Shown here in pieces: positions 1 to 52,360 of a stretch of 64,000 bases of DNA. The notes under the pieces are model-generated. The model worked only from the letters and a program-made list of their open reading frames with translations, had not been told where the DNA came from and ran no database searches. Where the stretch lies: contig NC_134027.1 of NCBI RefSeq assembly GCF_964204645.1, positions 20,076,485 to 20,140,484 on the forward strand, given 5' to 3'. Both the position numbers and the translations under genes were made by a program. Positions within the stretch are counted from its first letter, which is position 1, and the number at the start of each line of letters is the position of its first letter. Origin of the DNA: Tubulanus polymorphus. Its lineage: Eukaryota > Nemertea > Palaeonemertea > Tubulaniformes > Tubulanidae.

Positions 1-1926
1 GCGTGAAATATGAAACGGTGAATAGGAAGAATCAGGTACGAGTACACTCATGTAGCCAGCAGTGAACGCCAGTTAATCACACTACAACTAAACTAATCTT
101 GGCACTCGTAAGTATTCTATCAACAGCGACAACTAACAACAGTAACACAAAGATACAGGGGGGTATAATTTTACAATTACAATGTCGTGTAATATTTTAT
201 CACAGATTTCATCAAATGAAAAAAATAAAAATAAATCAACAACGAGTTTCGAGAATACTTTCGACTGACTTCTCTCACCCATAATATAATAAATGTCACC
301 CTCGATTAACCACAGCTATTGCAACAAATGACTTCTAGGTGGATAACTGAACATCACTTCAATCGATGACGAACTAAATATTTTCTGATCACGGCAATAA
401 CAGGTTTTGAATTTCTTTTTCCAGATAATACCGCAGCCATGCCAGAGAATAACTTAAGATCAAAATAACTCTGGGTCCGCTTTCACAGTCCTTACTTAAA
501 TTTGACTCTAGGGTTGAAATATTGAAAATGAACTTATTCTTACTTTACAGAAGCTTATAGATTATAGACATAAATTTAACCGACAATTGAGGAGGAACCA
601 ACTAGTAATTTCAGCCCTGGATTAACATAACCAGTACCTCGAAGACAGATGGCTTCAACCATTTGGCTTATCAAATAATCATTTCACCAATTGGGAATTC
701 AATGCTATGAACCGTGGATCCATAAAAAAGCAGACCTTTGTACAATTAAGATGAATTCACTGCCAAGTTCAACGGTGTTTCACGCAGAAAGATTTACACA
801 TCCCCAGTTTACGGTAGGTTTTATAAGTTATGTAACAACACAACTTTGAAATTAGCACCTTGGTGACATTAAAGGGTAAGCTTGAAGATATTACATTCAA
901 ACAACATATTGAAAAATAATACATACCTAAGCCTTTGGACCGAAATCTTAATGATCAGATTTTAGTACGAAGTGTGAGGAAAAACATTGGGTTGTATTCA
1001 AAAATATTCGCACTGCCATATTTTGCAATATAGACCCGCTTCAATGAGGGTACAACATGAGACAAATAAGCCCAACATCAAAAAAGGCAGGCATCTGAAC
1101 CCCAGATACACAAAATCTGGCCCTCGTTTCAAGCTATGGTATTGGATTTTCAGCAAACCCTGAAAAATTATTACCGGTATGTGTGGTTTTATAATACCAG
1201 ACCAATCTCTTATAGCTTTACCAAACCAGACTCATATTTCCCATCGATTTGATATACTCTGACATAAAACAGCAAAGTTATTTTTGCCTACCAAATTGCG
1301 TTGAACTTGCTTGTAAAGAGACATATTTTGCAGATTGGTACAAACACGAACTCTGGGCCAGTTGCGCAGCCAAAATGACTTATCCAAAAGTGATCTAAAA
1401 TCATAAACCTGGTCTTAAGTTGTTAGATAGACTTTATATCTAAGATAATCGAACAACATAAGACCAGTTTTAACAACTTCAGACCACTTTTGGACTGTTC
1501 AACTGGGCCCTGGTTTTAATCGTGAATCCAATTAATTTCACTAGTTGTACGTAGTAAGGTGTGACGTCCATATTCAGAATTATCCATCCGGAACAAACCA
1601 TCATAAATTTCCTTTAGGAAACTGGGGCCAGTCAAAGGTTTTTGATTTGTTATTTAGAAGTGCGGCATATTCAGCGATCTCCAGATACGCTGGTATGAAA
1701 TTCATCACCAGTTTGATACCAAAATCCAATCACAATAAATTTCAACAGTAGCACGTTAGCATCCACAGGTTAAAGTTGTCATTAGCAATAACTTTTGGTT
1801 GCAGCTAATATCAAGATCAGAGTACGTACACAGGATCGCGCAGTTGAGCAGAGTGTTCTGAAAATTTGACTTGCAGAAGAATGTTTTTCAGCGAGCAGTG
1901 ACTAGTGTGTGAGAAAGATTCTTCTA
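1..1926. other. Gene-free flank downstream of DNAJB9
   Basis: I see no coding exon with conserved protein content here. All open frames are short and have no recognisable motifs. The stretch includes the 3' flank, and probably the 3' UTR, of the minus-strand DNAJB9 gene, plus a foldback repeat around 1354-1513. Confidence 0.5.
1354..1513. repeat. Foldback (inverted) repeat
   Basis: The arm CTGGTCTTAAGTTGTT at 1409-1424 faces its near-complement at 1452-1467. The similarity extends outward: GGGCCAGTTG and CCAAAAGTG on the left mirror CACTTTTGG and CAACTGGGCCC on the right. It looks like a small non-autonomous inverted-repeat element. The phrase AACTGGGYCC recurs near 17450, 19810 and 22620, so a dispersed family is likely. 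Confidence 0.55.
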
Positions 1927-3860
1927 TCAAGTACACTGGGTCGTTGTGACCACGCGGTTACCGATTCTTTGCGTGATTGTTCGACAGTTCCCTGCAAAAC
2001 ATAGGAAGAAGATAATGATATACCAGTATGCAGCTTATTTCTGAGTATTTCAAACCCTGTTACAATAAACATGTAAGCCTGGTTAACTTTTGGAATAATG
2101 CCTAATGCAAAACTTTCTTAAAATGTTTTTTTTTTCAAATCATCAAGACTAGTCTTAAGTCGTTAGATTGCTATAGAACCAGAACCGGCAGAATGTGTTT
2201 TGACCAGTTAAGATTGGTTATGGAAGACATGTCTTAAGTTGTTATATTGCTATAGAACCAGAACCGGCAGAATGTATTTTGACAAGTGGTTAGATATTGG
2301 TTATGGAACCTAAGTAAACAATGCATGGTTTTGGTTGTATAGCCATTTTTGTGTTGTATTGGCTGTGAATTCTTGATGATTATCGAGAACAACTGCTGAT
2401 ATATCTATTTCAATAAACAGCTGTAACAACGAAATTCCAACTAGGATAAGCCTGCAATAGTTAAACTATTGTTACATACAGCTGTGTTTCATTCAACCTG
2501 TGTTAAACTCCTAAGAGCTGGTGTCATTGAAAATAAATATACATTGTATCCATAAAACGGCTATCATTACTAACTACTGTGATCATAATCTTATTGAATT
2601 TTTGTTGAAGTCATTGAGATTAAGGATTTCATCAGTAACTCATCATTATTGAACAATTCAATGAACATCATGTGTATCATAATTTTACTGAATAATGGGG
2701 TTATTGAGCATGAGTGGGTAATAAAATGGCATCTAATAATAATTTTACTGAATCACTGAAGTCGTCATTTTAATATCATTTAGCACCAAGAGATAATGAA
2801 ATTTGAGTCATCATTTGGACATTTCTCTTTAAACTGGAGCCTGCGTTTTCATGGTTAACGTAGAAAAACTGACTTACTTCCTGAACCAGCTGAGAAGGCT
2901 CCACCGCCACCGCCACCGCCACCGCCAAAGAAGTCCATATCATCTTCAAATGCCCCGCCTCCTCCAAAAAACGAATCGAAACTACCGAAATGATCATGTG
3001 GTTGATTATGATGGTGGTGGTCGCCGTGAAAACCGAAATCGGCGTCATTAAAAAAGTCATCGAACTGAAAGAATTGTTGCTGTTGTTGCCGGGCGTTATC
3101 TTTTTGCCGTGATCCGTGATGGTGGAATGAGTCGAACCCTTCAAATATGTCATCAAAATTGAAATGAAATCCGTGTCCGGCATTTCCAGTATTCCCATCG
3201 AGTCCTTCCTCGCCGAACATATCGTAGCGTTTGCGCTTTTCTTCATCGGTCAAAACTTCATGAGCTGAAATTTAAAAGAAAAGTATTTAAATCTCTAAAT
3301 ATGAATTCCATTGATTCATCCATTTGGTCATTTTCGAATGCACTCTAGTAAATTTTACGTTACACAATTAGCAGACGCCAGAAACTTATGCAATACATCC
3401 ATTATCAATAGAACACCAATAATTCACGGCATCTACTTATCATCTTCACGGATCCTTACTATTTCTAACTGAGTAACCTAGGTGCTTGCTTGAATTTTTT
3501 TTTCAAAATATACAAAATATGGGCCCATGGCAGGCATAAAAGCCTTTACAAGAATAAAAGAAGCCTTTATGCCGCATATCCACTTCAAAACCTCTCAATC
3601 AACCTGCCTCAGTAACCGTTCCACACACCTTTAGCTATTTCGATAAATTTCTTCTCAGCGGCCGGGTCGTCTTTATTCTTGTCCGGGTGATATTTGACGG
3701 CGAGTTTGCGGAAAGCTTTTTTAATCTCACGTTCGCTGGCATTGCGTTTGACTCCGAGGATTTCGTAGTAATCCTTCGATTTAGCGGCCGAGGTGAATGC
3801 GGCGCCGAGAAAACAAGCATTACACACGGCAGATAAGAGAATCAAACGACTCGACAACAT
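1927..3860 (-). CDS. DNAJB9: DnaJ homolog subfamily B member 9 (ERdj4-like ER co-chaperone)
   Basis: Three minus-strand coding exons: 3860-3629, 3264-2878 and 1991-1927, joined by GT-AG introns in matching phase, giving about 227 residues (human DNAJB9 has 223). Residues 1-26 are a hydrophobic signal peptide, so the product should act in the ER lumen. The J domain spans about 28-92 with the HPD motif at 58-60 (YHPDKN), which stimulates Hsp70 (BiP) ATPase. A Phe/Asp/His/Gln-rich middle with NFDDIF and a poly-Gly run follows. The short last exon encodes [11 protein letters not shown], matching the conserved C-terminus of the family. That exon was found by phase and homology; stopping exon 2 in its own frame would give an unnatural tail, and GTAAGT sits at 2877-2872. 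Start chosen at the Met directly before the signal peptide. In vertebrates the gene responds to the unfolded-protein response; I saw no clear ERSE here. Confidence 0.92.
2152..2307. repeat. Direct duplication of a 79-bp unit in DNAJB9 intron 2
   Basis: GTCTTAAGT followed by GTTAKATTGC and AGAACCAGAACCGGCAGAAT occurs twice, starting at 2152 and 2231, ending in GGTTATGGA each time. The two units differ at a few sites. Confidence 0.6.
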
Positions 3861-5446
3861 TCTGAAAAATATAAAAACAACACCACATATTTGATGCCAT
3901 TCTGGTTTTATTGCCACCGCACCCTACACGATTTCTTCACAATTTGTTGGCTATTTTCATGCGACAACTTTGCCGCTGGCAACCTTTTGTTGGCCGAAAA
4001 ATAGTTATCCCCAAGCAAATAAGCTGATCACCAGAATGAATTATTGTAAACCAACCGAAGGATAATAATTTTTTCGCAGAGCCATGGCCATATGATAATG
4101 CCAATTTGGCAAAATATCATATGGATATTTTACCGTATAGCCTACGGCTGAGTATTTATTTCCACTATTTTACCTGATTTTAGCTGATTTACACCGCACA
4201 TGCGCGACTGAGAAAATTCAAGGAAAGTGTGGAGAACAGAGTTAGAGAAAATAGAGCGGATAGAGTGAGACTCGAACCCGGGATAGTTAATTACTAGCCC
4301 AGCGTTATACCACTAGACCACCGAGCTCGCTGAAAAGCACTCGAATGTTTTAACTATCTATAGTACCTCACCTTACCCTAATCCTATCCCTAGGGTAAAA
4401 CGGAACCCTCTTCTCACCCTCTCGACACTAACCCTATCGAAACCCCAACCCTTAACCCAATATAATGATTTTATTCTTACTTTTATTAGTTAATACTAAA
4501 TACTATATATATAGTAATAATGTACGGTAAAATAGCGGAAGTAAATACTAAATACCTTGCTGTATTACGGTTAAATATCCACTTCGTAAAACAAAAGGTC
4601 AAGAAAACCACAATCAAACTTACTTGTTTTAATGTCACACTTCCACTTATTATAGGCCTACTACACAACAGTCACACACCACTTCCACAATTCCAGTTTA
4701 ACTTGAAGTCTTCCTTCTTCTCTCTTTTATTTAGTGCTTAAAAAAGGCAAGCTGCACACGGTTTTAGTTTCATAAACTACGGCTGCTAATTATTTCTCTT
4801 CTCTTCTTTGACTTTTGTATTAGAACCTTGATCCACTACCTAACTGATAACTGATGAAAATGAGAAACAGTCCAATAACTCCTCGCCACAGAAGAATAGC
4901 GCTTATAATCTGTCAAATGACTATTAGAGGGCAAGGGCTTCCCCGAAAAGCCACGACAAGCAAATTCATTGGTCCAGCACATCATGACGTCATTCCATTT
5001 CCACTGAGTGACCAAATTTGAAATTCAAATTTAACTTTATTTTTCAATTGGAGTAGGCTGACAGATTAATTAGATATGCCCATGGAATAAGATTTGATTA
5101 GAAAATCTTAGAAGGCACTTAAGACGTCTTTCCACTAGGACATTGAATTTGATTTGATTGAAAGTTCATCATTTCAATTCAATTCAATAAAACATTTATT
5201 GCTTCCATGAACGAAACAAAATTATCATGGGAAGAGCCAAGGGTACGCAAGCGAAGCCTCAGAGACACGAATTCAGGGCCACATATTGAGATTAAAGAAA
5301 GAAGAACATTTTAAGAAAATTTCACAAATATTCATCACTTTCGCAAACTGCTTAGAAAATCTGAAAATTGACGCAACATGGCTTCAAAATGGAGTCGCGG
5401 TTCATTCTTTTCGATCTTCGCAAAATCCGCGCATTATTTCATTTAG
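3861..5446. other. Intergenic region upstream of DNAJB9
   Basis: This should hold the DNAJB9 promoter and 5' UTR (minus strand). No protein-coding segment is recognisable. It contains a tRNA-like segment (4262-4332) and low-complexity AT-rich sequence. CCCTAACCC-like blocks occur at about 4375-4460, too degenerate to call interstitial telomere repeats. Confidence 0.4.
4262..4332 (-). repeat. tRNA-like segment, probably a tRNA-derived SINE head or tRNA pseudogene
   Basis: On the minus strand a good A box (TGGTCTAGTGG, 4320-4310) and B box (GGTTCGAGTCT, 4278-4268) are spaced as in a tRNA. The anticodon arm and the acceptor stem pair poorly, so I do not call a functional tRNA. Confidence 0.55.
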
Positions 5447-5483
5447 GTCTGTCTGCAGAGTTTCCAGAACCTGTCATGTCAGG
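5447..5483 (+). repeat. Left 37-bp terminal inverted repeat of the satellite-bearing unit
   Basis: Identical to the reverse complement of 12006-12042. It is followed inward at 5509-5526 by GACCTCAGGTGACAGGTC, which closely resembles the hairpin GACCTGTGGTGACAGGTC found in every satellite monomer. Confidence 0.85.
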
Positions 5484-5740
5484 GCCCAAGACCTGACATG
5501 ACAGGTGGGACCTCAGGTGACAGGTCGATTTGCTAAAATGAAAATCGTAATGACTGAACCGATGATAGACGATTAGAAGATATGATAGGCGCGGATTTAA
5601 AACAAATGATAGCCGATAAGAAACAAAAAGAACATATCTTAGTGCTTTCTGAATATATTATTCAAAAACAAAAAACAAACTATGATGTGTTATGAATTCA
5701 TTTAAGAATTTATGTTTGCCTTGTAAAGATGCAATGATTG

Positions 5741-8700
5741 TGAATTATTTGATTTCAATAATTTTGAAGCGAGACCTCACACGGCAGCTCGCGCCATTTT
5801 GCAGAGCTTCTCGGGACCTGTGGTGACAGGTCTGCACTAAAACTGATGAAATTGAAAAAACTTTACTTTTTATAACCTTTATATAGTAAAGAGTATAATA
5901 TAAATTGCTAACCATAGATAGAGTTAATCTTAAGTTACTATAAAACAATAATTTTGAAGCGAGACCTGACACGGCAGCTCGCGCCATTTTGCAGAGCTTC
6001 TCGAGACCTGTGGTGACAGGTCTGCATTAAAACTGATGAAATGAAGGAAAACATTAATTTTTATGGTCTCTTTATAGTAAAGAGTATAATATAAATTGCT
6101 AACCATGGATAGAATTAATCTTAAGTTACTATAAAACAATAATTATGAAGCGAGACCTGACACGGCAGCTCGCGCCATTTTGCAGAGCTTCTCGGGACCT
6201 GTGGTGACAGGTCTGCTTGAAAACTGATGAAATGGAAAAAACTTTACTTTTTATGGTATCTTTATAGTAATGAATATAAAATAGATTGCTAACCATGGAT
6301 ATAGTTAATCTTAAGTTACTATAAAACATTAATTATGAAGCGAGACCTCACACGGCAGCTCGCGCCATTTTGCAGAGCTTCTCGAGACCTGTGGTGACAG
6401 GTCTGCTTGAAAACTTACTTTTTATGGTATCTTTATAGTAATGAATATAATATAGATTGCTAACCATGGATATAGTTAATCTTAAGTTACTACAAAACAA
6501 TAATTTTGAAGCGAGACCTCACACGGCAGCTCGCGCCATTTTGCAGAGCTTCTCGAGACCTGTGGTGACAGGTCTGCTTGAAAACTGATGAAATGGAAAA
6601 AACTTTACTTTCTATAACCTTTATATAGTTATAAGTATAATATAAATTGCTAACCATAGATAGAGTTAATCTTAAGTTACTATAAAACAATAATTTTGAA
6701 GCGAGACCTGACACGGCAGCTCGCGCCATTTTGCAGAGCTTCTCGAGACCTGTGGTGACAGGTCTGCATTAAAACTGATGAAATGAAGGAAAACATTAAT
6801 TTTTATGGTCTCTTTATAGTAAAGAGTATAATATAAATTGCTAACCATGGATAGAATTAATCTTAAGTTACTATAAAACAATAATTATGAAGCGAGACCT
6901 GACACGGCAGCTCGCGCCATTTTGCAGAGCTTCTCGGGACCTGTGGTGACAGGTCTGCTTGAAAACTGATGAAATGGAAAAAACTTTACTTTTTATGGTA
7001 TCTTTATAGTAATGAATATAAAATAGATTGCTAACCATGGATATAGTTAATCTTAAGTTACTATAAAACATTAATTATGAAGCGAGACCTCACACGGCAG
7101 CTCGCGCCATTTTGCAGAGCTTCTCGAGACCTGTGGTGACAGGTCTGCTTGAAAACTTACTTTTTATGGTATCTTTATAGTAATGAATATAATATAGATT
7201 GCTAACCATGGATATAGTTAATCTTAAGTTACTACAAAACAATAATTTTGAAGCGAGACCTCACACGGCAGCTCGCGCCATTTTGCAGAGCTTCTCGAGA
7301 CCTGTGGTGACAGGTCTGCTTGAAAACTGATGAAATGGAAAAAACTTTACTTTTTATAACCTTTATACAGTTATAAGTATAAAATAGATTGCTAACCATG
7401 GATATAGTTAATCTTAAGTTACTATAAAACATTAATTATGAAGCGAGACCTCACACGGCAGCTCGCGCCATTTTGCAGAGCTTCTCGAGACCTGTGGTGA
7501 CAGGTCTGCTTGAAAACTTACTTTTTATGGTATCTTTATAGTAATGAATATAATATAGATTGCTAACCATGGATATAGTTAATCTTAAGTTACTACAAAA
7601 CAATAATTTTGAAGCGAGACCTCACACGGCAGCTCGCGCCATTTTGCAGAGCTTCTCGAGACCTGTGGTGACAGGTCTGCTTGAAAACTGATGAAATGGA
7701 AAAAACTTTACTTTCTATAACCTTTATATAGTTATAAGTATAATATAAATTGCTAACCATAGATAGAGTTAATCTTAAGTTACTATAAAACAATAATTTT
7801 GAAGCGAGACCTGACACGGCAGCTCGCGCCATTTTGCAGAGCTTCTCGAGACCTGTGGTGACAGGTCTGCATTAAAACTGATGAAATGAAGGAAAACATT
7901 AATTTTTATGGTCTCTTTATAGTAAAGAGTATAATATAAATTGCTAACCATGGATAGAATTAATCTTAAGTTACTATAAAACAATAATTATGAAGCGAGA
8001 CCTGACACGGCAGCTCGCGCCATTTTGCAGAGCTTCTCGGGACCTGTGGTGACAGGTCTGCTTGAAAACTGATGAAATGGAAAAAACTTTACTTTTTATG
8101 GTATCTTTATAGTAATGAATATAAAATAGATTGCTAACCATGGATATAGTTAATCTTAAGTTACTATAAAACATTAATTATGAAGCGAGACCTCACACGG
8201 CAGCTCGCGCCATTTTGCAGAGCTTCTCGAGACCTGTGGTGACAGGTCTGCTTGAAAACTTACTTTTTATGGTATCTTTATAGTAATGAATATAATATAG
8301 ATTGCTAACCATGGATATAGTTAATCTTAAGTTACTACAAAACAATAATTTTGAAGCGAGACCTCACACGGCAGCTCGCGCCATTTTGCAGAGCTTCTCG
8401 AGACCTGTGGTGACAGGTCTGCTTGAAAACTGATGAAATGGAAAAAACTTTACTTTCTATAACCTTTATATAGTTATAAGTATAATATAAATTGCTAACC
8501 ATAGATAGAGTTAATCTTAAGTTACTATAAAACAATAATTTTGAAGCGAGACCTGACACGGCAGCTCGCGCCATTTTGCAGAGCTTCTCGAGACCTGTGG
8601 TGACAGGTCTGCATTAAAACTGATGAAATGAAGGAAAACATTAATTTTTATGGTCTCTTTATAGTAAAGAGTATAATATAAATTGCTAACCATGGATAGA

Positions 8701-11440
8701 ATTAATCTTAAGTTACTATAAAACAATAATTATGAAGCGAGACCTGACACGGCAGCTCGCGCCATTTTGCAGAGCTTCTCGGGACCTGTGGTGACAGGTC
8801 TGCTTGAAAACTGATGAAATGGAAAAAACTTTACTTTTTATGGTATCTTTATAGTAATGAATATAAAATAGATTGCTAACCATGGATATAGTTAATCTTA
8901 AGTTACTATAAAACATTAATTATGAAGCGAGACCTCACACGGCAGCTCGCGCCATTTTGCAGAGCTTCTCGAGACCTGTGGTGACAGGTCTGCTTGAAAA
9001 CTTACTTTTTATGGTATCTTTATAGTAATGAATATAATATAGATTGCTAACCATGGATATAGTTAATCTTAAGTTACTACAAAACAATAATTTTGAAGCG
9101 AGACCTCACACGGCAGCTCGCGCCATTTTGCAGAGCTTCTCGAGACCTGTGGTGACAGGTCTGCTTGAAAACTGATGAAATGGAAAAAACTTTACTTTTT
9201 ATAACCTTTATACAGTTATAAGTATAAAATAGATTGCTAACCATGGATATAGTTAATCTTAAGTTACTATAAAACATTAATTATGAAGCGAGACCTCACA
9301 CGGCAGCTCGCGCCATTTTGCAGAGCTTCTCGAGACCTGTGGTGACAGGTCTGCTTGAAAACTTACTTTTTATGGTATCTTTATAGTAATGAATATAATA
9401 TAGATTGCTAACCATGGATATAGTTAATCTTAAGTTACTACAAAACAATAATTTTGAAGCGAGACCTCACACGGCAGCTCGCGCCATTTTGCAGAGCTTC
9501 TCGAGACCTGTGGTGACAGGTCTGCTTGAAAACTGATGAAATGGAAAAAACTTTACTTTCTATAACCTTTATATAGTTATAAGTATAATATAAATTGCTA
9601 ACCATAGATAGAGTTAATCTTAAGTTACTATAAAACAATAATTTTGAAGCGAGACCTGACACGGCAGCTCGCGCCATTTTGCAGAGCTTCTCGAGACCTG
9701 TGGTGACAGGTCTGCATTAAAACTGATGAAATGAAGGAAAACATTAATTTTTATGGTCTCTTTATAGTAAAGAGTATAATATAAATTGCTAACCATGGAT
9801 AGAATTAATCTTAAGTTACTATAAAACAATAATTATGAAGCGAGACCTGACACGGCAGCTCGCGCCATTTTGCAGAGCTTCTCGGGACCTGTGGTGACAG
9901 GTCTGCTTGAAAACTGATGAAATGGAAAAAACTTTACTTTTTATGGTATCTTTATAGTAATGAATATAAAATAGATTGCTAACCATGGATATAGTTAATC
10001 TTAAGTTACTATAAAACATTAATTATGAAGCGAGACCTCACACGGCAGCTCGCGCCATTTTGCAGAGCTTCTCGAGACCTGTGGTGACAGGTCTGCTTGA
10101 AAACTTACTTTTTATGGTATCTTTATAGTAATGAATATAATATAGATTGCTAACCATGGATATAGTTAATCTTAAGTTACTACAAAACAATAATTTTGAA
10201 GCGAGACCTCACACGGCAGCTCGCGCCATTTTGCAGAGCTTCTCGAGACCTGTGGTGACAGGTCTGCTTGAAAACTGATGAAATGGAAAAAACTTTACTT
10301 TTTATAACCTTTATACAGTTATAAGTATAATATAAATTGCTAACCATAGATAGAGTTAATCTTAAGTTACTATAAAACAATAATTTTGAAGCGAGACCTG
10401 ACACGGCAGCTCGCGCCATTTTGCAGAGCTTCTCGAGACCTGTGGTGACAGGTCTGCATTAAAACTGATGAAATGAAGGAAAACATTAATTTTTATGGTC
10501 TCTTTATAGTAAAGAGTATAATATAAATTGCTAACCATGGATAGAATTAATCTTAAGTTACTATAAAACAATAATTATGAAGCGAGACCTCACACGGCAA
10601 CGCGCGCCATTTTGCAGAGCTTCTCGAGACCTGTGGTGACAGGTCTGCTTGAAAACTGATGAAATGGAAAAAACTTTACTTTTTATGGTATCTTTATAGT
10701 AATGAATATAAAATAGATTGCTAACCATGGATATAGTTAATCTTAAGTTACTAAAAAACATTAATTATGAAGCGAGACCTCACACGGCAGCTCGCGCCAT
10801 TTTGCCGAGCTTCTCGAGACCTGTGGTGACAGGTCTGCATTAAAACTGATAAAATGAAGGAAAACATTGATTTTTATGGTCTCTTTATAGTAAAGAGTAT
10901 AATATAAATTGCTAACCATAGATAGAATTAATCTTAAGTTACTATAAAACAATAATTTTGAAGCGAGACCTGACACGGCAGCTCGCGCCATTTTGCAGAG
11001 CTTCTCGGGACCTGTGGTGACAGGTCTGCACTAAAACTGATGAAATTGAAAAAACTTTACTTTTTATAACCTTTATATAGTAAAGAGTATAATATAAATT
11101 GCTAACCATGGATATAGTTAATCTTAAGTTACTATAAAACAATAATTTTGAAGCGAGACCTGACACGGCAACGCGCGCCATTTTGCAGAGCTTCGGGACC
11201 TGTGGTGACAGGTCTGCACTAAAACTGATGAAATTGAAAAAACTTTACTTTTTATAACCTTTATATAGTAAAGAGTATAATATAAATTGCTAACCATAGA
11301 TAGAGTTAATCTTAAGTTACTATAAAACAATAATTTTGAAGCGAGACCTGACACGGCAGCTCGCGCCATTTTGCAGAGCTTCTCGAGACCTGTGGTGACA
11401 GGTCTGCTTGAAAACTGATGAAATGGAAAAAACTTCATGC
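5741..11440. repeat. Satellite array, about 31 monomers of 171-191 bp with higher-order structure
   Basis: GAAGCGAGACCT recurs at 5766, 5956, 6147, 6337, 6508, 6698, 6889, 7079, 7250, 7440, 7611 and onward to 11338. Spacings are 190, 191, 190 and 171. From 6508 the blocks are tetramers of 742 bp (190+191+190+171) and dimers of 361 bp (190+171) in the order 742, 361, 742, 742, 361, 742. Corresponding monomers in different blocks look almost identical, while neighbours within a block differ, which is the mark of higher-order repeat amplification. Each monomer has a GC-rich half (GGCAGCTCGCGCCATTTTGC then a hairpin AGACCTGT-GGTG-ACAGGTCT) and an AT-rich half. The edges (5766-6337 and 10769-11338) are more diverged. 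No gene is encoded. Confidence 0.95.
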
Positions 11441-12005
11441 TTTAAATTGATGAGTTGATTTAAAATCAGTCTCAATAAAATCAGTCTCTATATTGCATTC
11501 GGCTCTTTTACATGTACATCATAAAGACAATGAATATATATAGTGAGACTTCAGGACTTCAGGACAGTGAGGAGTGTTGCCGAACTGTGATAGTGAGCAG
11601 ATAATTTTCAGTGTCTTATTGCGGAAACGAAATATCAAGACCTCGATTCATCTAGCGAAAATATTCTCTTATAATGTGCTCTTATTTCTACATTAATTAA
11701 TTCATCTTTGCCTGAAACTTATTTTTTACCTTTAATACAGAAATAAGTCATAGTTTACACATAAATATTTTCTTCTTATAAATCAACCTTTCAAATGAAT
11801 TATTTGTCAGAACATTTTCCTTATCGTTATTGTTGAATCATTTTCGATATTAACGACGGGTCAGAATATTCATTCAACTCAAAATGTTCTTCCATTCGTC
11901 TAACACATGCCTAGATATTTCGCCGTTCCGTCAAATATTGTCATGAGTTTGGGTTTTTTCGGGACCTGACATGACAGGTCAGACCTGTCATGTCAGGTCT
12001 TAAGA

Positions 12006-12042
12006 CCTGACATGACAGGTTCTGGAAACTCTGCAGACAGAC
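12006..12042 (-). repeat. Right 37-bp terminal inverted repeat of the satellite-bearing unit
   Basis: Perfect inverted match to 5447-5483. Directly inside it are two further inverted copies of CCTGTCATGTCAGG-type sequence (11963-12005). Confidence 0.85.
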
Positions 12043-12158
12043 ATCAATCCATTATTTTCATAAATAATTCATCGTCGAACATGTTCCAGTTCCGTAAATA
12101 ATCGCCACTCGTTAGCAGCGATGTTCTAGAACCCGCTTAGGAGGAAAACGAACGGATA

Positions 12159-32799: not shown

Positions 32800-35408
32800 T
32801 TAACCCTTATCGTCCCATGTTCGACTATAGTCGAATCCAATTGTTGTCAGTTTAATTTCCATGTTCGACTATAGTCGAATCATGAACACCCGCTACATTG
32901 CCTCGAGATTCTCCGGCATGCGGCGCTGGATCCGCGTTTTAGACAGTGCCTAGTATAGACGGCGTCCCGGTCGATTAGCCGCCGTAAAAATTTTACGAAG
33001 TTGCAATTCAAAGTTTTGGAGTATTTCTACGTGAAAAAATCATGAATGTTAGCCAGGTATTAGATGAAATTTTCGCAGATGATGACTCTGGAGATGACGA
33101 TTTGCCGTCTGATTCTGGATATAGCGAGGAACATGATGAATCCCAGTCAAATGTTTCTGATAATGACGACAATTATGCATCAGATGAGGACAATCCACTG
33201 CCTCCCCCGTCTCCCCCACCTGCCCTAGCCCCTGATTCTGGTAGTGATCATGACAGTGGCAATCAATCTGATAATCAAGATGATCGTGGCAGGCCTAGAG
33301 GTAGAATTATTCCCCCTAATAGATAGAGAAGCAGATCCAGATCTCCTGTTAGGGTTCCCGCTAGGCCTAGAGGCAGGGGAAGGGCTGCTCCAGCTAGAGG
33401 AAGAGGAAGAGGAAGAGGCAGGGGTCGCGGCCGTGCAGTTCCAAATGCGCCATTGCTAGATAACTGGCAGGACCACGACGGGACTATGCCAGATTGGTTG
33501 CAGAATACACCAAATCAAGGAAAGCCTGTAGTTGATACTACAGGGTACACTAAAAAGGATTTTTTGAACCTAACATTATCGCCACATATAGTTGACAAAT
33601 TAGTAATGGAAACAAATCGTTACTTCGACCAGTATGCCGCTGGACAAAATGCAAAAGAATCTGTGGTGAATTCATGGCAGCCCGTTACTCATCAGGAAAT
33701 GAATGCTTTTTTAGCAATTATTATAGTTGCAGCAACGTGCAGAAAAGATCCTTTCAAACATATGTGGAGTACCAACTGGATGATTGAAATGCCTGGTATA
33801 AGGTCGGTTATGTCAAGAAATAGGTTCCAGGATATATTGAGGTTTCTACACACTGTGGACAATACACAGGCTGTACCACAAGGTCAGCCTGGATATCATA
33901 GGTGTTTTAAAATCAAATCTTTCAGTCAAGATTTAGCAACCGCTTGGCAGAAAGCGTATAATCTTGAGAAAAACATATCAATAAATGAATGTATGGTGGC
34001 CTTCAAGGGACGTATTCATTTTATGCAATATATGCCCAAAAAACCCAAGAAATGGGGAATGAAAGCTTGGGTGCTTGCAGGCAGTGGAACTGGATATGAA
34101 TATGACTGGAAGCTATATTCTGGGAAAGATGGTGACCTTGTAGAGAAAGACTTGAGTTCGAAAGTAGTCAAAAATCTTGTGGCCGGACTTCCACATGGTC
34201 ATGTACTGTACACGGACAACTTTTATTCAAATGTAGCATTATTTGAGGATCTAAAAACAATGGGGATAGGTGCATGTGGAACGGTGAAGTCCAACAGAAA
34301 GAGAAACCCTCCCGAAATTCAAAGATTTAACGAAAAGACTAGTGAGCGAATTCTTCGTGAAATTTCCCCTATCTATAAATATAATGGAAACGTTTTAGCC
34401 ATCGGATGGATGGACAAACGCCCAGTTTGTCTGCTTTCAACTATTCATTCATCAGATACTGTAAAAAAGCGTGTTCGTGACAGACGCCAACAAAATGGAT
34501 ATAGAGAAGTTGATAAACCCACCGCGGTAAATGATTACAACTTTTTATGGGAGGAGTTGATCGATCAGATCAAATGAATTCGTACTTCAGTGTTACTCAA
34601 CGTACGGTCAAGTGGTGGAAAAAGGTATTATTTCACCTCATTGTCACTGCGATTACAAATGCTTATCTGCTGTATAAGTCAGCGACAGCTAACCCCAGTG
34701 AACATCATGACTTTTTGTTAGATTTAGCAAAAGAACTTTTGGAGGGATACTTGAGGACCCGTCCGACAGTTGTCCCAGCAGGTGATAATGAGATGCGTCT
34801 GACTGAAAGACATTTCCTCGAAAAAGTTGACCAGAAACCTAACTGCGCTGTATGTACAAAGAGAGATCCAGTGAACCCAAAAAAATACCTTAGACGGAAA
34901 CAGTATACGGCTACGATTTACAGTATACAGGTGTTCCTAAAGTTGGACTATGCGCTGTGCTGTGTTTTGAAATTTTTCATCACAGAAGCACTATGTACGG
35001 TACTATGAACGCCATTTCCTCCAATAAGAAAGGTAATGATATTAATATTTCTCTATTTTTATTGTCACATATGTAATTTAGATCACATTTTGCAGTGCAG
35101 TTAGCATTTATTTCTGATTTTACAGACATTATAAATTTTTCCCACAAAATTCGGCAAATTTCATACATTTTATACAAAAAACGTCGAATTTTATCAAATT
35201 TTCTTTTGTCAAATCTAAAAACATCATATACCATAAGAATCTGCAGAATGTGCTCTAGTAAGTTTTCTTTTACAGCTAAAGGCTAGGAGCAATAGTTTTT
35301 GCACTAGAGGAATTTGAAGTTAGGTACTAATTTTGGTCTATTGTTGCAATGTACAGCCGGGATCCGTGGTAACCAGTGTCAATGTACAGCTGGGTGCGAA
35401 AGGGTTTA
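32800..35408 (+). mobile_element. piggyBac-type DNA transposon, copy 1
   Basis: Left end TTAA (32800-32803) followed by CCCTTATCGTCCCATG. The right end reads inverted CCCTTTCGCACCCAGC next to TTTA (35405-35408), probably a mutated TTAA. Just inside the left end the palindrome TTCGACTATAGTCGAA occurs twice, at 32820-32835 and 32864-32879. The right subterminal region has a direct repeat of TGTACAGCYGGG. The element sits about 120 bp upstream of the first visible importin-9 exon, in opposite orientation. Confidence 0.85.
33042..35008 (+). pseudogene. piggyBac transposase (DDE_Tnp_1_7 family), decayed
   Basis: The N-terminus is acidic, then Arg/Gly-rich (RGRGRGRG), followed by the catalytic region LSPHIVDKLVMETNRYFDQY, MEMPGIRSVMSRNRF-like helix, NFYSNVALFEDL and GGVDRSDQ. 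There is one in-frame TAG at 33324-33326. The frame shifts near 34545, just before the third catalytic Asp, and again in the Cys-rich C-terminus. The first catalytic Asp of the DDD triad is replaced by Asn (SINECMV; codon AAT at 33984-33986). The second (TDNFYSN) and third (GGVDRSD) are present. The enzyme cannot be active as read. Length and motif order fit a full piggyBac transposase of about 600 residues. Confidence 0.88.
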
Positions 35409-37516: not shown

Positions 37517-39878
37517 CAAGAGCCCCAAGGGGCACAATGGCCAGCCTGTCAGATTTGCTTTTTATAAATGATGTAATCTGTGGGTTATATTTATCAATAT
37601 ACACTCCCTGCTCAATATCATTTACATAGTAAAATCGTGTGTTAACACAGACAGCAGGAACGAATGTAATATAGAAATACTAAGTTATTGTATTGTTCAA
37701 CGCCCCTGGTGGCCATATACAAAAACCAATGAGCTTGAAACTCACCAAGATCATAGACCATGTCATGAGCTACAACTTTCCAATTGATTGTGGTAGCAAA
37801 ATATGCATAGGTACGATTGTAATATAGAAATACTAAGTTAGTGTATTGTTCAACGCCCCCTGGTGGCCATAAACAAAAATCAATGAGCTTGAAACTCACC
37901 TCGATCATAGAACATGTCATGAGCTACAACTTTCCAATTGATTATAGTAGCAAAATATGCTTAAGTATCAATTATGATGTGGAAAAACTTTTTTTCCACC
38001 TACGAATGAGTACTGATGACCCCAAGATGGCCGCCAAGTGCGTCATAATTGCCTGGTCAAAAATACCCTCTCGGATATAAAAGATCCCTTTCCAAAGAAT
38101 ACCCATTACAAATTGCATTGAAACATGGCACACCATTAGAAAGTACAGTACTCAGAATTCAGGCCAAAATTGACATTTTTGGGAACAAAAAAGGTTACAG
38201 TACGGCCATCTTGAGTCCGATCTACCCAATTTTTCTCATGCCGATGGGCCCTCGGGGGATACAAATATATACGAATGATCAAGGTTATTGATAAAAGTGT
38301 CTTCAAAATTTCGTAAAAAGTGCTGATTTTGGCGAACAACAATGGCTGCCAGTCGGCCATCTTGAATCTGACAGGGCCAGTTTTGGGCCTGGAGATGTGT
38401 CTAGGGTAGATACACGTATAAACCAAATATCAAGACATTACCTTGAAGCGTCTTCAAAACTTTGGAACTCTCACGAACTATCTAGATGGTTATCTCTCGA
38501 CCTCAATAGCTTCAAGACCCATCCCAAAACAACTTTGTTCCATGCAGCATACCATTAACTCTCGGAAAGCGAATTGTATTTAACATTTTTTTGGCAGAAT
38601 AAAATTTGATTGAATTTGCAATTCGGGCACATGGCTAATTAGCATATCAAGGTCATACACCCGATTTGGTAAAACCTTTTTTTTCGCGAACCTTGCGCAA
38701 TTGTCAAGGATGAATTTTCTGTAGAGCAAATAAAAATTCCTCCCAAACACCAAATCAACTAAAGATTTCATAGAAATCGATCTTGAAATACAATTTTAAA
38801 TCTTAAAATAAAATCCGGAAGTAAAACAGTAGACGATACCGCGGATTCACGTGAACACCTGATTTCTGTAAACGAAATGTTGGTTGTGACAAAATTGTTC
38901 AGACGGTTTTAGGTGGTAATAAGTACGGAAACGTAACGACCATGGTTGACTTATTCGATGAAATCAGGCCTATGTGATATCCAAATTTTGACTTTTTTAT
39001 TCTCCAGACCTCCCTGATAGAAATAAAAAATTTTGGTGGTACGAAAGTGCAATCACAGTGCCGACGGGGACAGAGCCGTGTCAGAGATCGGTGGAGTGAA
39101 AATTGAGGTGGACGAACACGATGAAGTAGGCTATTGCGCTACTTGAATCACGAAAACTCCCGACGCTTTTCGTTGATTAAGTAATACAAATATCATGCAA
39201 TGGGGTTTTCACAATCTACCGCTGGTATTTACCAGCAATTCAATATCACTCCAAATTCAAAGAAACCTCGAAATATCGAACCGGAACACTTCCGGTAGAT
39301 ATCCGCGGTTGCCCAACCGGGAAACTTATTAGTTTCAATAGATATTGATAGGATCCATCATCTTCACCCGTCAAGGGATTCGAACCCACTAAGCTACAGC
39401 CATGCCAGAATCGGGTCGGGCCAATCACAGCGCTTGTAACAAACCACATTAGGCTTCTGTGGAATTTCCCAGTAAATGGGCCAATCAGCGAACACGTAGC
39501 GAACGCGGAAGTATTGTCGCGTGTTGATACATGAAGTCCATAGTCATGCGCAAAAGCGCCAGTAATGAAATCGCGATAATTCACGTGAACAGCTGCTGAT
39601 ATTTTCAGATAAACCAATTACAGGGAAGACACAACTTCCTGATTGGCTGATAAAATTGAAATTTTCCCGATTTAACTTTCGTGAAAAATGCAGAAAACAT
39701 TTTTATGAGACCCTATTTCAAAATTATGCTCGCTACGATTCCGAGAATGGATTACGCTTAAATACGTGATTTGTTCGAATATGCCCTCACTTGGCAAGCA
39801 AAAGAGCCTTTTGTGTGGAAACCATGTCATTTAAATTCGCTCCATTTGTATAGTAATAGGCTCAGCCTACGCCTGGCC
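37517..39878 (+). repeat. Element Y, copy 2, inserted in element Z
   Basis: Begins CAAGAGCCCCAAGGGGCACA and ends CTCAGCCTACGCCTGGCC, flanked by TAA on both sides. Removing it and one TAA restores the sequence seen uninterrupted at about 61018-61034. It contains a reverse-orientation R2 block (about 37640-38530), a 158-bp tandem duplication (37668-37975) and a 700-bp extra block (about 38873-39585) relative to copy 1. Confidence 0.7.
39365..39425 (-). repeat. tRNA-like fragment with perfect B box
   Basis: The minus strand reads TAGCTTAGTGGGTTCGAATCCC, joining part of an A-box-like arm to a perfect B box. The anticodon arm is missing, so this is a SINE or tRNA relic within element Y copy 2. 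Confidence 0.4.
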
Positions 39879-49623: not shown

Positions 49624-52360
49624 CAGACCCTCCAACCCTTCCGATTTATCCGGAATCGTTACGTATTTTTGAACCAATATCCGCACTCCGTTTGCCGGTG
49701 GAAAAATTCCGGAAATTTCGTGAGTGAAGATCGACAGGCGATACTGGACCGTAAAAAGCGTCCTGAGCCGTAAAAGCGCTCATTTATAGTATCCCTGCCG
49801 TACATAAAGAAAATTGATTGTCTATCTGAAATCAGCGTCAAAGTTTGTGAAATGCATATTATATACATACAGCACTAGCATCGTATTGATTTTTCCTATC
49901 TAACGGCGCGAGTCTGATGGGAAAAACCCCAGTACCAAGTAGTCTATATTTACCTGAATCAAACATGCTCGCTACAGCGTTTTTTAATTCTCTCGTCCTT
50001 TGCGACTACTTCGCGGAGATTGCGTATTTAAATGAAAATAGCGTTAAATTATCGCATTTAACTATTAGTGACGATACTTGAAAAATTTTGAAAATCAATC
50101 GATTTGCAATGGGCTTACTCGATATCGGTTTCACGCGATCCTCAGTGCGTCCACTTTATGTGTTGTGTACGGCGCCGGACCTACCGCGCCATTTCATTTG
50201 CGTTTCACTCTTATCGTAGCGGCTCTAACTTCTTGGTCAAGGATCTGCATTTTTAATCGTAAGTAAGCAATGTGCCTTGTTTATTAATTAATCAGAGAGT
50301 AAGTTGATCATGCTACATTACGATATCTTCCGCCGATTTTATCGAAGAAATTTTGAACGTTCTCCTGTCACTAGATTTAAACCAATCCAATTAAATAAAA
50401 TTTTATTATATCGTCAATTTATCATGATTAAGTACTTCATTCAACGTGTATGGGTAGAACAATATGTTCAATCATGTGATTTTCACTAATCATTCCCTAC
50501 TGAATTAAATTTGAGATGTCACGTAATAGTTTGAAAAAAGAATATTTATAGCTTGCCAAAGCCTTCGATACAATGTTCCTTTCATAGGGATCCTACAATT
50601 TACAAGCTATTGTTACTCATATATTTTCAGGAAATGGATAACGGGGAGAGCAGTGATTCTGATGTGGAAATCCCGAAGAAAAAAGCAAAGACAACATCAA
50701 GGGCTTATCAAAAATATTTGGTGGAATATAGTGTTCTCTTCCCTGATGTGACGCATTCGAAGACGAAAGATAAACACTTTGCATATTGCAAAGTGTGCAA
50801 AACCGATTTTTCTATCAAGCATGGAGGAAGAGATGACTGTCGCTGTCATTGTCAGTCAGAAAAGTATAAGGACTACAAACGAATATTATCTTCTAACCAT
50901 AATTTATTCGCGACAGGATTCAGCGCTGTGGATACGAATGATAGTGATCTAACTCGCATTGTAAATGCGGAACTTCTGTTTTTATCTTTTTTGATTGAAC
51001 ATAATCTGCCATTTTCGATCATGGACCACGTAAACCATTTAATGAAAAAAATGTTTCCAGACTCAAAGATAGCTAAAAAATTTAGCTGTGGGCACACGAA
51101 AGGACATAATGTTATCGAAGCTATGGCTAAGGACTCTGTGACAAAGGCAATCGATGCTTTGAAAGTGGCGCAAACATTTACCCTCGTCTGGGATGGTAGT
51201 GATGAGGGGGATGATAAATTATATCCAGTTATTTTACGGTTTGTGAATCCGAACGCCTTGGTACGTAGTGTTTTGATATCTATTCCGTGTATAAACGACC
51301 TGAGTTCTGGAGAAAATATCTACAAAATGTTGGACAAAGAACTACAGAAATTTGATCTCGAATGGAAGAACTGTTTAGCTTTTTGTTCAGACAATTGTAA
51401 TGTAATGACTGGAAGCAAGAAAGGCGTAATTGCTTATATACGAAAGCAAAATGAAAACGTTTATTTATCAGGGTGTCCTTGTCACCTGATACATCTGGCT
51501 GCTGAAAAGGGAGCAAAGGCATTTAGTCTTCTCAGTATCGAGGAACTGCTTGTTGACATTTTCTATTATCTTGATAAGAGCACCAAAAGAAAAAATAGCC
51601 TAAATGAATTCCAAAAGATTTGTGGCAAAGAAGAAATGAAGATAATAAAACATGGGGCAACACGGTGGCTTTCTTTGGAGAAAGCTCTCACACGTCTGCT
51701 TGAGCAATGGATACCATTGCGTAAATTTTTTGTAGAAGAATGCAAGGACCACCCAGATGCATCATCAAGGTAATTCGATCATGTTAGACTCTAGGTAGAA
51801 ATCCACATTTTACATAAAAAGATGGATGTGATGAATGAAATAGGTTTTAAAAAAAACTTAATGCAAACTAGGCAAGAGTCTTTTCTTGTGTCTTGTAATA
51901 ATAATTGAAGACTCTTGCATGGTTTGCATTCAGTTTTTTTCAAACTTACTTTAGAAACATCCTTCCCTGATTGACCTAACGTTTCTGACGGAAATTTGAT
52001 ACTTCTATTTTCAGTGATCGGAAAGTACGGGCTAAAAAAAACTGAATTCATCATTAACCCGATTGGTCTGCTATTTCCTTCAAAGTGTGCTTCCAGTTTT
52101 TAATCAGGCTAATGTCTTGCTGCACTCCGAAAAGCCGATAAGCCAACCCTCATGGGTCTATTGCGGAAGTTACTTATCCGGTTTATGAAACCAAGTGCCA
52201 TGTCATCGTGCTCTGAACTCGATGTCAAGTATGCTCTTAGTTATAATATTCTATCCGACAAAGACATAATGATTGGTAGTAGTGCATTGGAGTACATGTC
52301 ACAGTCAAAAGGACTGAGTGATGATGACAAAAAAAAGTTCTATGTAATTGCTGATGTAAG
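49624..52360 (+). mobile_element. hAT-type DNA transposon, degenerate
   Basis: The hAT transposase at 50634-52353 is preceded about 1 kb upstream by CAGACCCTCCAACCCTTCCG (49624), which looks like a hAT terminal repeat. No matching right end or 8-bp duplication was found, so the limits are approximate. Confidence 0.5.
50634..52353 (+). pseudogene. hAT superfamily transposase with BED-like zinc finger
   Basis: Exon 1 (50634-51769) starts at the Met just after the acceptor TTTTCAG at 50630 and ends at AAG/GTAATT. It encodes a basic KKKAKTTSR patch, a BED-like finger (CKVCKTDFSIKHGGRDDCRCH), then the RNase H-like core with TFTLVWDGSDEGDDKLYPV, AFCSDNCNVMTGSKKG, LSGCPCHLIHLAA and GATRWLSLEKALTRLLEQW. 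Exon 2 (from 52086) continues LPVFNQANVLLHSEKP, then the frame shifts to LLRKLLIRFMKPSAM and runs to GTAAGT at 52354. The shift and the missing C-terminal dimerisation region make it a pseudogene. Similar proteins in animals are ZBED-like; exon structure with good splice sites leaves domestication possible but unlikely. Confidence 0.75.

Follow-up and report, generated by a model that had tools for sequence, protein, structure and literature searches.

A satellite array very probably carried inside a non-autonomous DNA transposon of Tubulanus polymorphus

The window, by which we mean the whole stretch of 64,000 nucleotides of Tubulanus polymorphus DNA that was analysed, contains an element of 6,610 bp (5440-12049) with an 8-bp target duplication, CATTATTT, on either side. 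It belongs to a family of small elements without genes, and most of its interior is a tandem array. Its parts are listed here, together with one feature elsewhere in the window that bears on its mobility.

5432-5439, no strand: left copy of the target duplication, CATTATTT (from the sequence and the table of 36 copies)
5440-5446, + strand: left end, outermost 7 bp, CATTTAG, with no exact mirror at the opposite end
5447-5483, + strand: left 37-bp subterminal inverted repeat
5469-5506, + strand: left hairpin, arms 5469-5483 and 5492-5506, with two palindromic boxes like ACCTGACATGACAGGT
5509-5526, + strand: third box, degenerate, GACCTCAGGTGACAGGTC, the closest relative of the monomer box
5527-5755, + strand: left unique spacer
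5756-11435, + strand: satellite array made up of 31 monomers, each about 190 bp (with 171-bp variants) and with two degenerate boxes
6238-9927, + strand: two higher-order units of 1,845 bp, exact copies of each other (6238-8082; 8083-9927), each of roughly 10 monomers
11436-11960, + strand: right unique region, 525 bp, identical in four copies
11963-12020, - strand: right hairpin, three palindromic boxes matching at 16/16
12006-12042, - strand: right 37-bp subterminal inverted repeat
12043-12049, - strand: right end, outermost 7 bp, ATCAATC on the + strand
12050-12057, no strand: right copy of the target duplication, CATTATTT
38868-39230, - strand: empty counterpart of the site at which another copy, L012 (C2:22698784), is inserted, with one CTGTGATT at the junction

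An initial annotation, made from the letters alone, described identical 37-bp inverted repeats bracketing a tandem array. This is confirmed. The repeats agree at 37/37 bp with 0 mismatches (0 matches in 100 dinucleotide-preserving shuffles of the window), and Tandem Repeats Finder run on the window places the array at 5756-11435, with a 190-bp unit in 30.6 copies and an additional row for a 361-bp dimer. The box GACCTCAGGTGACAGGTC also lies at 5509-5526, where it had been reported. The same annotation took the 37-bp repeats for the termini of an element. They are indeed an inverted pair, but they are subterminal, and the true ends lie 7 bp further outward on each side. For the element group as a whole the end sequences are CATTTAG (array type) or GATTTAG (an older set of relatives) ... 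GTCTGTCTGCAG. The letters CATTTAG are identical in 34 of 36 copies, the exceptions being L014 (ATTTTAG) and L035 (CATTTCG).

These boundaries were read from other copies in the assembly. The 37-bp pattern, with up to 3 mismatches allowed, has 52 + 54 matches there; the reversed control pattern has 0. Copies were defined as end matches paired face to face, among 101 listed of the 106 matches. Pairing gave the window copy, 35 others of 1.1-6.5 kb (measured by the repeats) and one of 17.7 kb. When the flanks are aligned, 7 further bp outside each 37-bp repeat prove to belong to the element, and the 8-bp duplication comes directly after them. The duplication is perfect in 30 of the 36 shorter copies; it is one base off in L004 and departs further in L005, L009, L014, L015 and L025. 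There are three further two-ended copies, namely L045, which has a perfect duplication (GATTAATC), and the 17.7-kb copy and L044, which have none. L046 shows one clear end only and was left out of the count. If the array were part of a mobile element, as the initial annotation suggested, target duplications would be expected at other loci and the 37-bp end would be expected to accompany arrays of differing length. Both are seen. In total, 31/39 array-type two-ended copies examined have a perfect 8-bp duplication and 8/39 do not, and monomer counts, available for 36 copies, range from 1 to 31. Even the copy with a single monomer, L020, has a perfect duplication.

Copy L044 (C3:12916899-12920991) has the left-type terminal 7 bp on both sides, besides lacking a perfect duplication. 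It is perhaps a product of end conversion or recombination.

Is the monomer found without the ends? There are 451 matches to the monomer core in the assembly (up to 3 mismatches; control 0). The first 37 two-ended copies hold 345 of them and all loci examined hold 378; free-standing arrays may exist among the other 73. The monomer-core places among the matches listed, which are all on C1 and C2, are inside copies having at least one end. The ends diverge by 0.6-1.0% and the inside by about 8.5% on average (median 3.6-4.3%), a contrast that overstates constraint because a copy was selected only if its 37-bp end had no more than 3 mismatches.

An empty site gives a further argument for movement. 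Copy L012 resides in repeated sequence, and when its flanks are joined with one duplication they align without a break to positions 38868-39230 of the window (- strand) at 94.4% over 376 aligned bases. The window thus contains a repeat paralogue of this site with a single CTGTGATT. One empty site has therefore been found, as the initial annotation had anticipated for a mobile element, and it is in a paralogous repeat of the same assembly. The search for an empty site of the window's own copy returned only its own two flanks. Inverted ends, a duplication of fixed 8-bp length and an empty site are among the marks of the non-autonomous class of elements with terminal inverted repeats, and these three are present here.

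Two other readings can be judged at this point. Within the window a single array is visible, which could suggest a plain satellite array flanked by inverted repeats through coincidence, or a palindrome made by the assembly. The initial annotation named a larger assembly-made palindrome as what would overturn the element. It is not so: paired ends with duplications recur at many loci, the end pattern has 106 matches against 0 for the control, and the 31/39 perfect duplications and the empty site point the same way, leaving the ordinary array or artefact a negligible chance. Secondly, tandem repeats at the centre, which are seen in bivalve elements, could suggest a Helitron or a Helentron-like element. 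The copies described here have inverted terminal repeats and 8-bp duplications; Helitrons are not known to make a target duplication or to have inverted ends. Hence we give this reading hardly any credence, although central tandem repeats are common in such elements according to the accessible text of PMC12628747. We conclude that 5440-12049 is very probably a non-autonomous DNA transposon of the cut-and-paste type, whose interior consists mostly of a satellite array that travels inside it.

The insertions also show a strong target preference, in half of those scored. The motif ACCCGG^AAGT (ACCCGGAAGT), scored in register, reaches at least 7/10 in 15 of 30 insertions with perfect duplications (mean 6.3), against 0.45% of 20,000 random window positions (mean 3.1); since the motif was read from the same insertions the exact fraction is inflated, though not a hundredfold. 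The 15 motif-fitting insertions are oriented 7 one way and 8 the other way. The remaining 15 scored insertions, including the window's own (5/10), do not fit the motif. Conservation fades a few bases beyond it, and therefore this is not insertion into one repeat family. By eye, the motif can also be seen beside L005, L009 and L046, at the large relative on C3 described below, and at the right end of another large relative at C4:24838591. It resembles what we take to be a site for ETS factors.

Do the arrays themselves move? In the window copy 6238-8082 equals 8083-9927 in 1845/1845 bases, and the longest exact run at a shift of 1,845 bp is 2,565 bp. A third block, from 9928 on, matches ungapped at only 1179/1845 and is therefore a partial unit. 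Across the 36 copies there are 414 monomers with 278 distinct sequences, 47 of which recur across copies. The first four monomers (0, 1, 2 and 3) of the window copy are exactly those of L001 (C1:1424128). Moreover, window monomers 0-3 and 25-29 have counterparts in the same order in L001, and the repeated block of ten monomers sits between them in the window. When monomer order was compared in 465 pairs of copies with at least 5 monomers, 28 pairs beat all of 200 order shuffles, where about 2 are expected. Pairs with common order include window/L001, L004/L005, L012/L023, L008/L019 and L011/L015. A common order of monomers at different loci, each with its own duplication, means that the arrays were transposed, and the proposal of the initial annotation that the element could move whole arrays is supported in this way. 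The window copy then grew after moving, by exact duplication of a 1,845-bp (10-monomer) higher-order unit. Four copies that are identical over the 525-bp right region have 31, 16, 14 and 11 monomers; length therefore changes faster than sequence.

One could suppose instead that only a short transposon moved and that each copy amplified its own array after landing, the arrays being immobile. Such a history would suit the range of 1-31 monomers, the 278 of 414 monomer sequences that are distinct and the 437 of 465 array pairs that fail to beat all shuffles. It cannot yield a monomer order common to unlinked copies and is refuted for the top pairs; as a general account it is very improbable. It may apply to copies with few monomers, and local growth, such as the 1,845-bp duplication in the window, adds to movement. 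Movement of whole arrays thus stays the preferred reading.

The sequence of the monomer may tell something about its origin. Aligned to the inner part of the right end (TGCAGAG.TTC...ACCTGT..TG.CAGGTCT) it scores 31, against a mean of 14.6 and a maximum of 29 in 1000 shuffles; against the left box it scores 30, which 0/1000 shuffles reach. The boxes of the ends match at 15-16/16, plus one of 13/16 at the left. The monomer tested has two boxes, of 12/16 and 14/16, where shuffled sequence gives 0.016 per 250 nt. These similarities support common descent of the box sequences of monomer and ends and the monomer itself contains, in degenerate form, an inner copy of the terminal repeat. Both ends also form folds much more stable than those of their shuffles (z -5.8 and -6.6, 0/200 each). 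The hairpin that the initial annotation drew in every monomer does not stand out as a fold, since 35/200 shuffles of the 79-nt monomer piece fold equally well (z -0.97). Its suggestion that the satellite arose by amplification of a subterminal hairpin fares better in part: the monomer does resemble both ends more closely than any of 1000 shuffles does, and either could have been copied from the other. In favour of such an origin one can count the older large relatives, which have only one to three monomers, adjoining the right end; against it, the 238-bp array of large relatives, which has no similarity to the ends. Amplification from the hairpin is only consistent with the data.

The boxes permit yet another reading, in which the array is kept by selection as a cluster of transposase-binding sites, in the way suggested for Galileo, and is not a passive passenger. 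Two degenerate boxes per monomer, far above the shuffled expectation given above, would agree with this, as would the functional secondary sites in the tandem repeats of Galileo that are described in the accessible part of PMC3688188. However, the monomer sites are degraded, because their boxes match at 12-14/16 and the outer end boxes at 15-16/16; L020, with its one monomer, has a perfect duplication; and the 238-bp array of large relatives is boxless. We consider selection of this kind unlikely.

The older set of relatives has the ends GATTTAG and GAATGAT. Two large ones are two-ended, on C11 (11,386 bp) and C3 (12,190 bp), and perfect 8-bp duplications are found in 2/2. They have about 5 kb in common on the left, at about 92% over the longest stretches. 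Further relatives of this set are scattered through the genome (26 of 1136 candidates scored). The 11-12 kb relatives (L040/L041 and L042/L043) were considered as autonomous partners and rejected, their longest stop-to-stop frame being 142 aa; six-frame translation of two stretches of the C11 relative gave no Pfam family at 0.01. Another large relative, L047 (C8:249000-258900), contains at least 27 tandem copies of a 238-bp unit at its positions 12-6490, so that this transposon lineage has another satellite besides the first. Neither this array nor a 116-bp one, both from large relatives, shows any reportable similarity to the ends or the monomer (criterion at most 5/300 simple shuffles) or any box of at least 12/16. 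Elements of the array type may descend from the large relatives through shortening and amplification of the monomer.

Some copies contain extra sequence. In the 17.7-kb copy (L036, L037; C4:18580088-18598197) a nested stretch of about 15 kb lies within the array, flanked by identical LTR-like 193-bp repeats, and includes a hAT element with the dimerisation domain PF05699. Copy L022 (C4:6888652-6895178) has both ends, a perfect duplication and about 3.4 kb extra on the left, where pieces of a PHD finger (PF00628) and of an OTU-like domain (PF02338, just under the cut-off) lie on the opposite strand; cargo and a nested insertion are both possible.

A transposase gene with these ends was sought in the copies, in the scanned stretches of the relatives and among family matches near the listed ends, and none was found. 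The hAT gene (PF05699) of the 17.7-kb copy is nested and has its own ends, CAGGGCTGCC, and was rejected as the partner; it is the sole hAT gene seen inside a copy, and no hAT transposase belonging to the ends described here was found. At C2:13064751 (L062/L064) a left end is followed by sequence whose right end was not found. Here L062 (C2:13064650-13070150) has at 3269-5501 an OTU-protease gene (PF02338) with a weak herpesvirus-tegument-like peptidase match below the cut-off. Several near-identical copies of this gene exist in the genome, and it probably belongs to another mobile element. As a partner the locus was rejected: the gene is taken as nested because the near-identical copies elsewhere (C8, C44 and others) have no end among the matches listed. 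In L064, at about 2350-2700, a THAP-like reading frame can be seen by eye right after truncated monomers, and Pfam gave no confirmation of it. The left-end fragments L060, L061 and L063 continue into other sequence and offer no partner.

We assign the element to no superfamily. An 8-bp target duplication fits hAT and P, among others; that of Galileo is 7 bp. The hAT terminal motif is CA, purine, N, G. The element agrees with hAT in the length of its duplication, and its ends, CATTTAG and GATTGAT, miss the terminal motif. For the P type (PF21787) there are 20 matches, and for KDZ (PF18758) also 20; in both cases none is within 100 kb of an end among the matches listed. One P element in the assembly begins CAGGGAAGTG. 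The window also has a hAT-like reading frame at 50535-51773, with 33% identity to the nested hAT protein over 288 residues, a PiggyBac-like reading frame at 33327-34577, seen by eye, and a 154-bp unit present twice at 37656-37967, which by eye is like the repeats of L064 at about 2760-3130.

Several suggestions can be made regarding how such an element may have come about. The repeated palindromic box ACCTG(A/T)CATG(A/T)CAGGT would be what a transposase made elsewhere recognises at the ends. Since no transposase with these ends was found, we can only infer mobilisation in trans. The monomer might have started out as a piece of the interior in which the inner terminal repeat was present in degenerate form, and might have been amplified in a line derived from the 11-12 kb elements through loss of the interior. 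Arrays would then lengthen or shorten through unequal exchange, or through gap repair following excision. A bolder scheme, which we think quite unlikely, would join these steps. If the transposase or a host partner directs the satellite carrier to the ETS-like ACCCGG^AAGT, it would place there arrays with as many as about 60 degenerate boxes for the transposase. Array length would tune recognition, higher-order units would come from gap repair after excision, and satellite growth and transposition would be one process.

How short repeat arrays are scattered through euchromatin and become satellites is debated, and the precedents are mostly few or decayed copies. Here one genome has about 40 fresh, clean-ended copies with 1-31 monomers, and in one of them a recent exact higher-order duplication. 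For each copy the movement of whole arrays can be told apart from their subsequent growth. As a further lead, open to direct testing, there is the strong target preference. In the literature searched, where coverage of subscription papers is thin and absence is not proven, the element family of the window was not seen; nor, with the same thin coverage, was a case joining common monomer order, exact higher-order units, an empty site and a target motif.

Other examples of satellites within inverted-repeat elements are known: Tetris, Xstir and miDNA4, as far as the accessible parts of their descriptions go. Tetris, a foldback-like element of Drosophila virilis, is non-autonomous, and its autonomous partner is given as not found in the available part of PMC4079207. 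According to the same part, it resembles the present element in its target duplications of 8-9 bp, in tandem repeats of about 220 bp that also form kb-size arrays, and in a repeat about 80% similar to the terminal domain over 37 bp. It differs in having its repeats inside both terminal repeats and in its few copies, three of them complete. Here there is a single central array, dozens of copies, exact higher-order units and common monomer order, and each terminal repeat measures 37 bp, with short boxes in addition. The Tc1/mariner MITE miDNA4 of Xenopus tropicalis likewise has an internal satellite, which consists either of one monomer or of an array whose length varies (PMC12628747, accessible text); it is Tc1/mariner, whereas our element has 8-bp duplications and other ends. 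In Xenopus laevis, the Xmix/Xstir MITE has MITE-derived tandem repeats riding on it (accessible parts of PMC9659126 and PMC12628747), and is unrelated to the window element as far as descriptions tell. Finally, Galileo, of the P superfamily, has tandem repeats with extra transposase-binding sites, as the accessible part of PMC3688188 reports; these tandem repeats lie within long terminal repeats, Galileo has its own transposase and binding was tested there, while the boxes of our element are known as sequence. The kind of element is thus known, and what is unusually clear here are the steps by which it spreads and lengthens.
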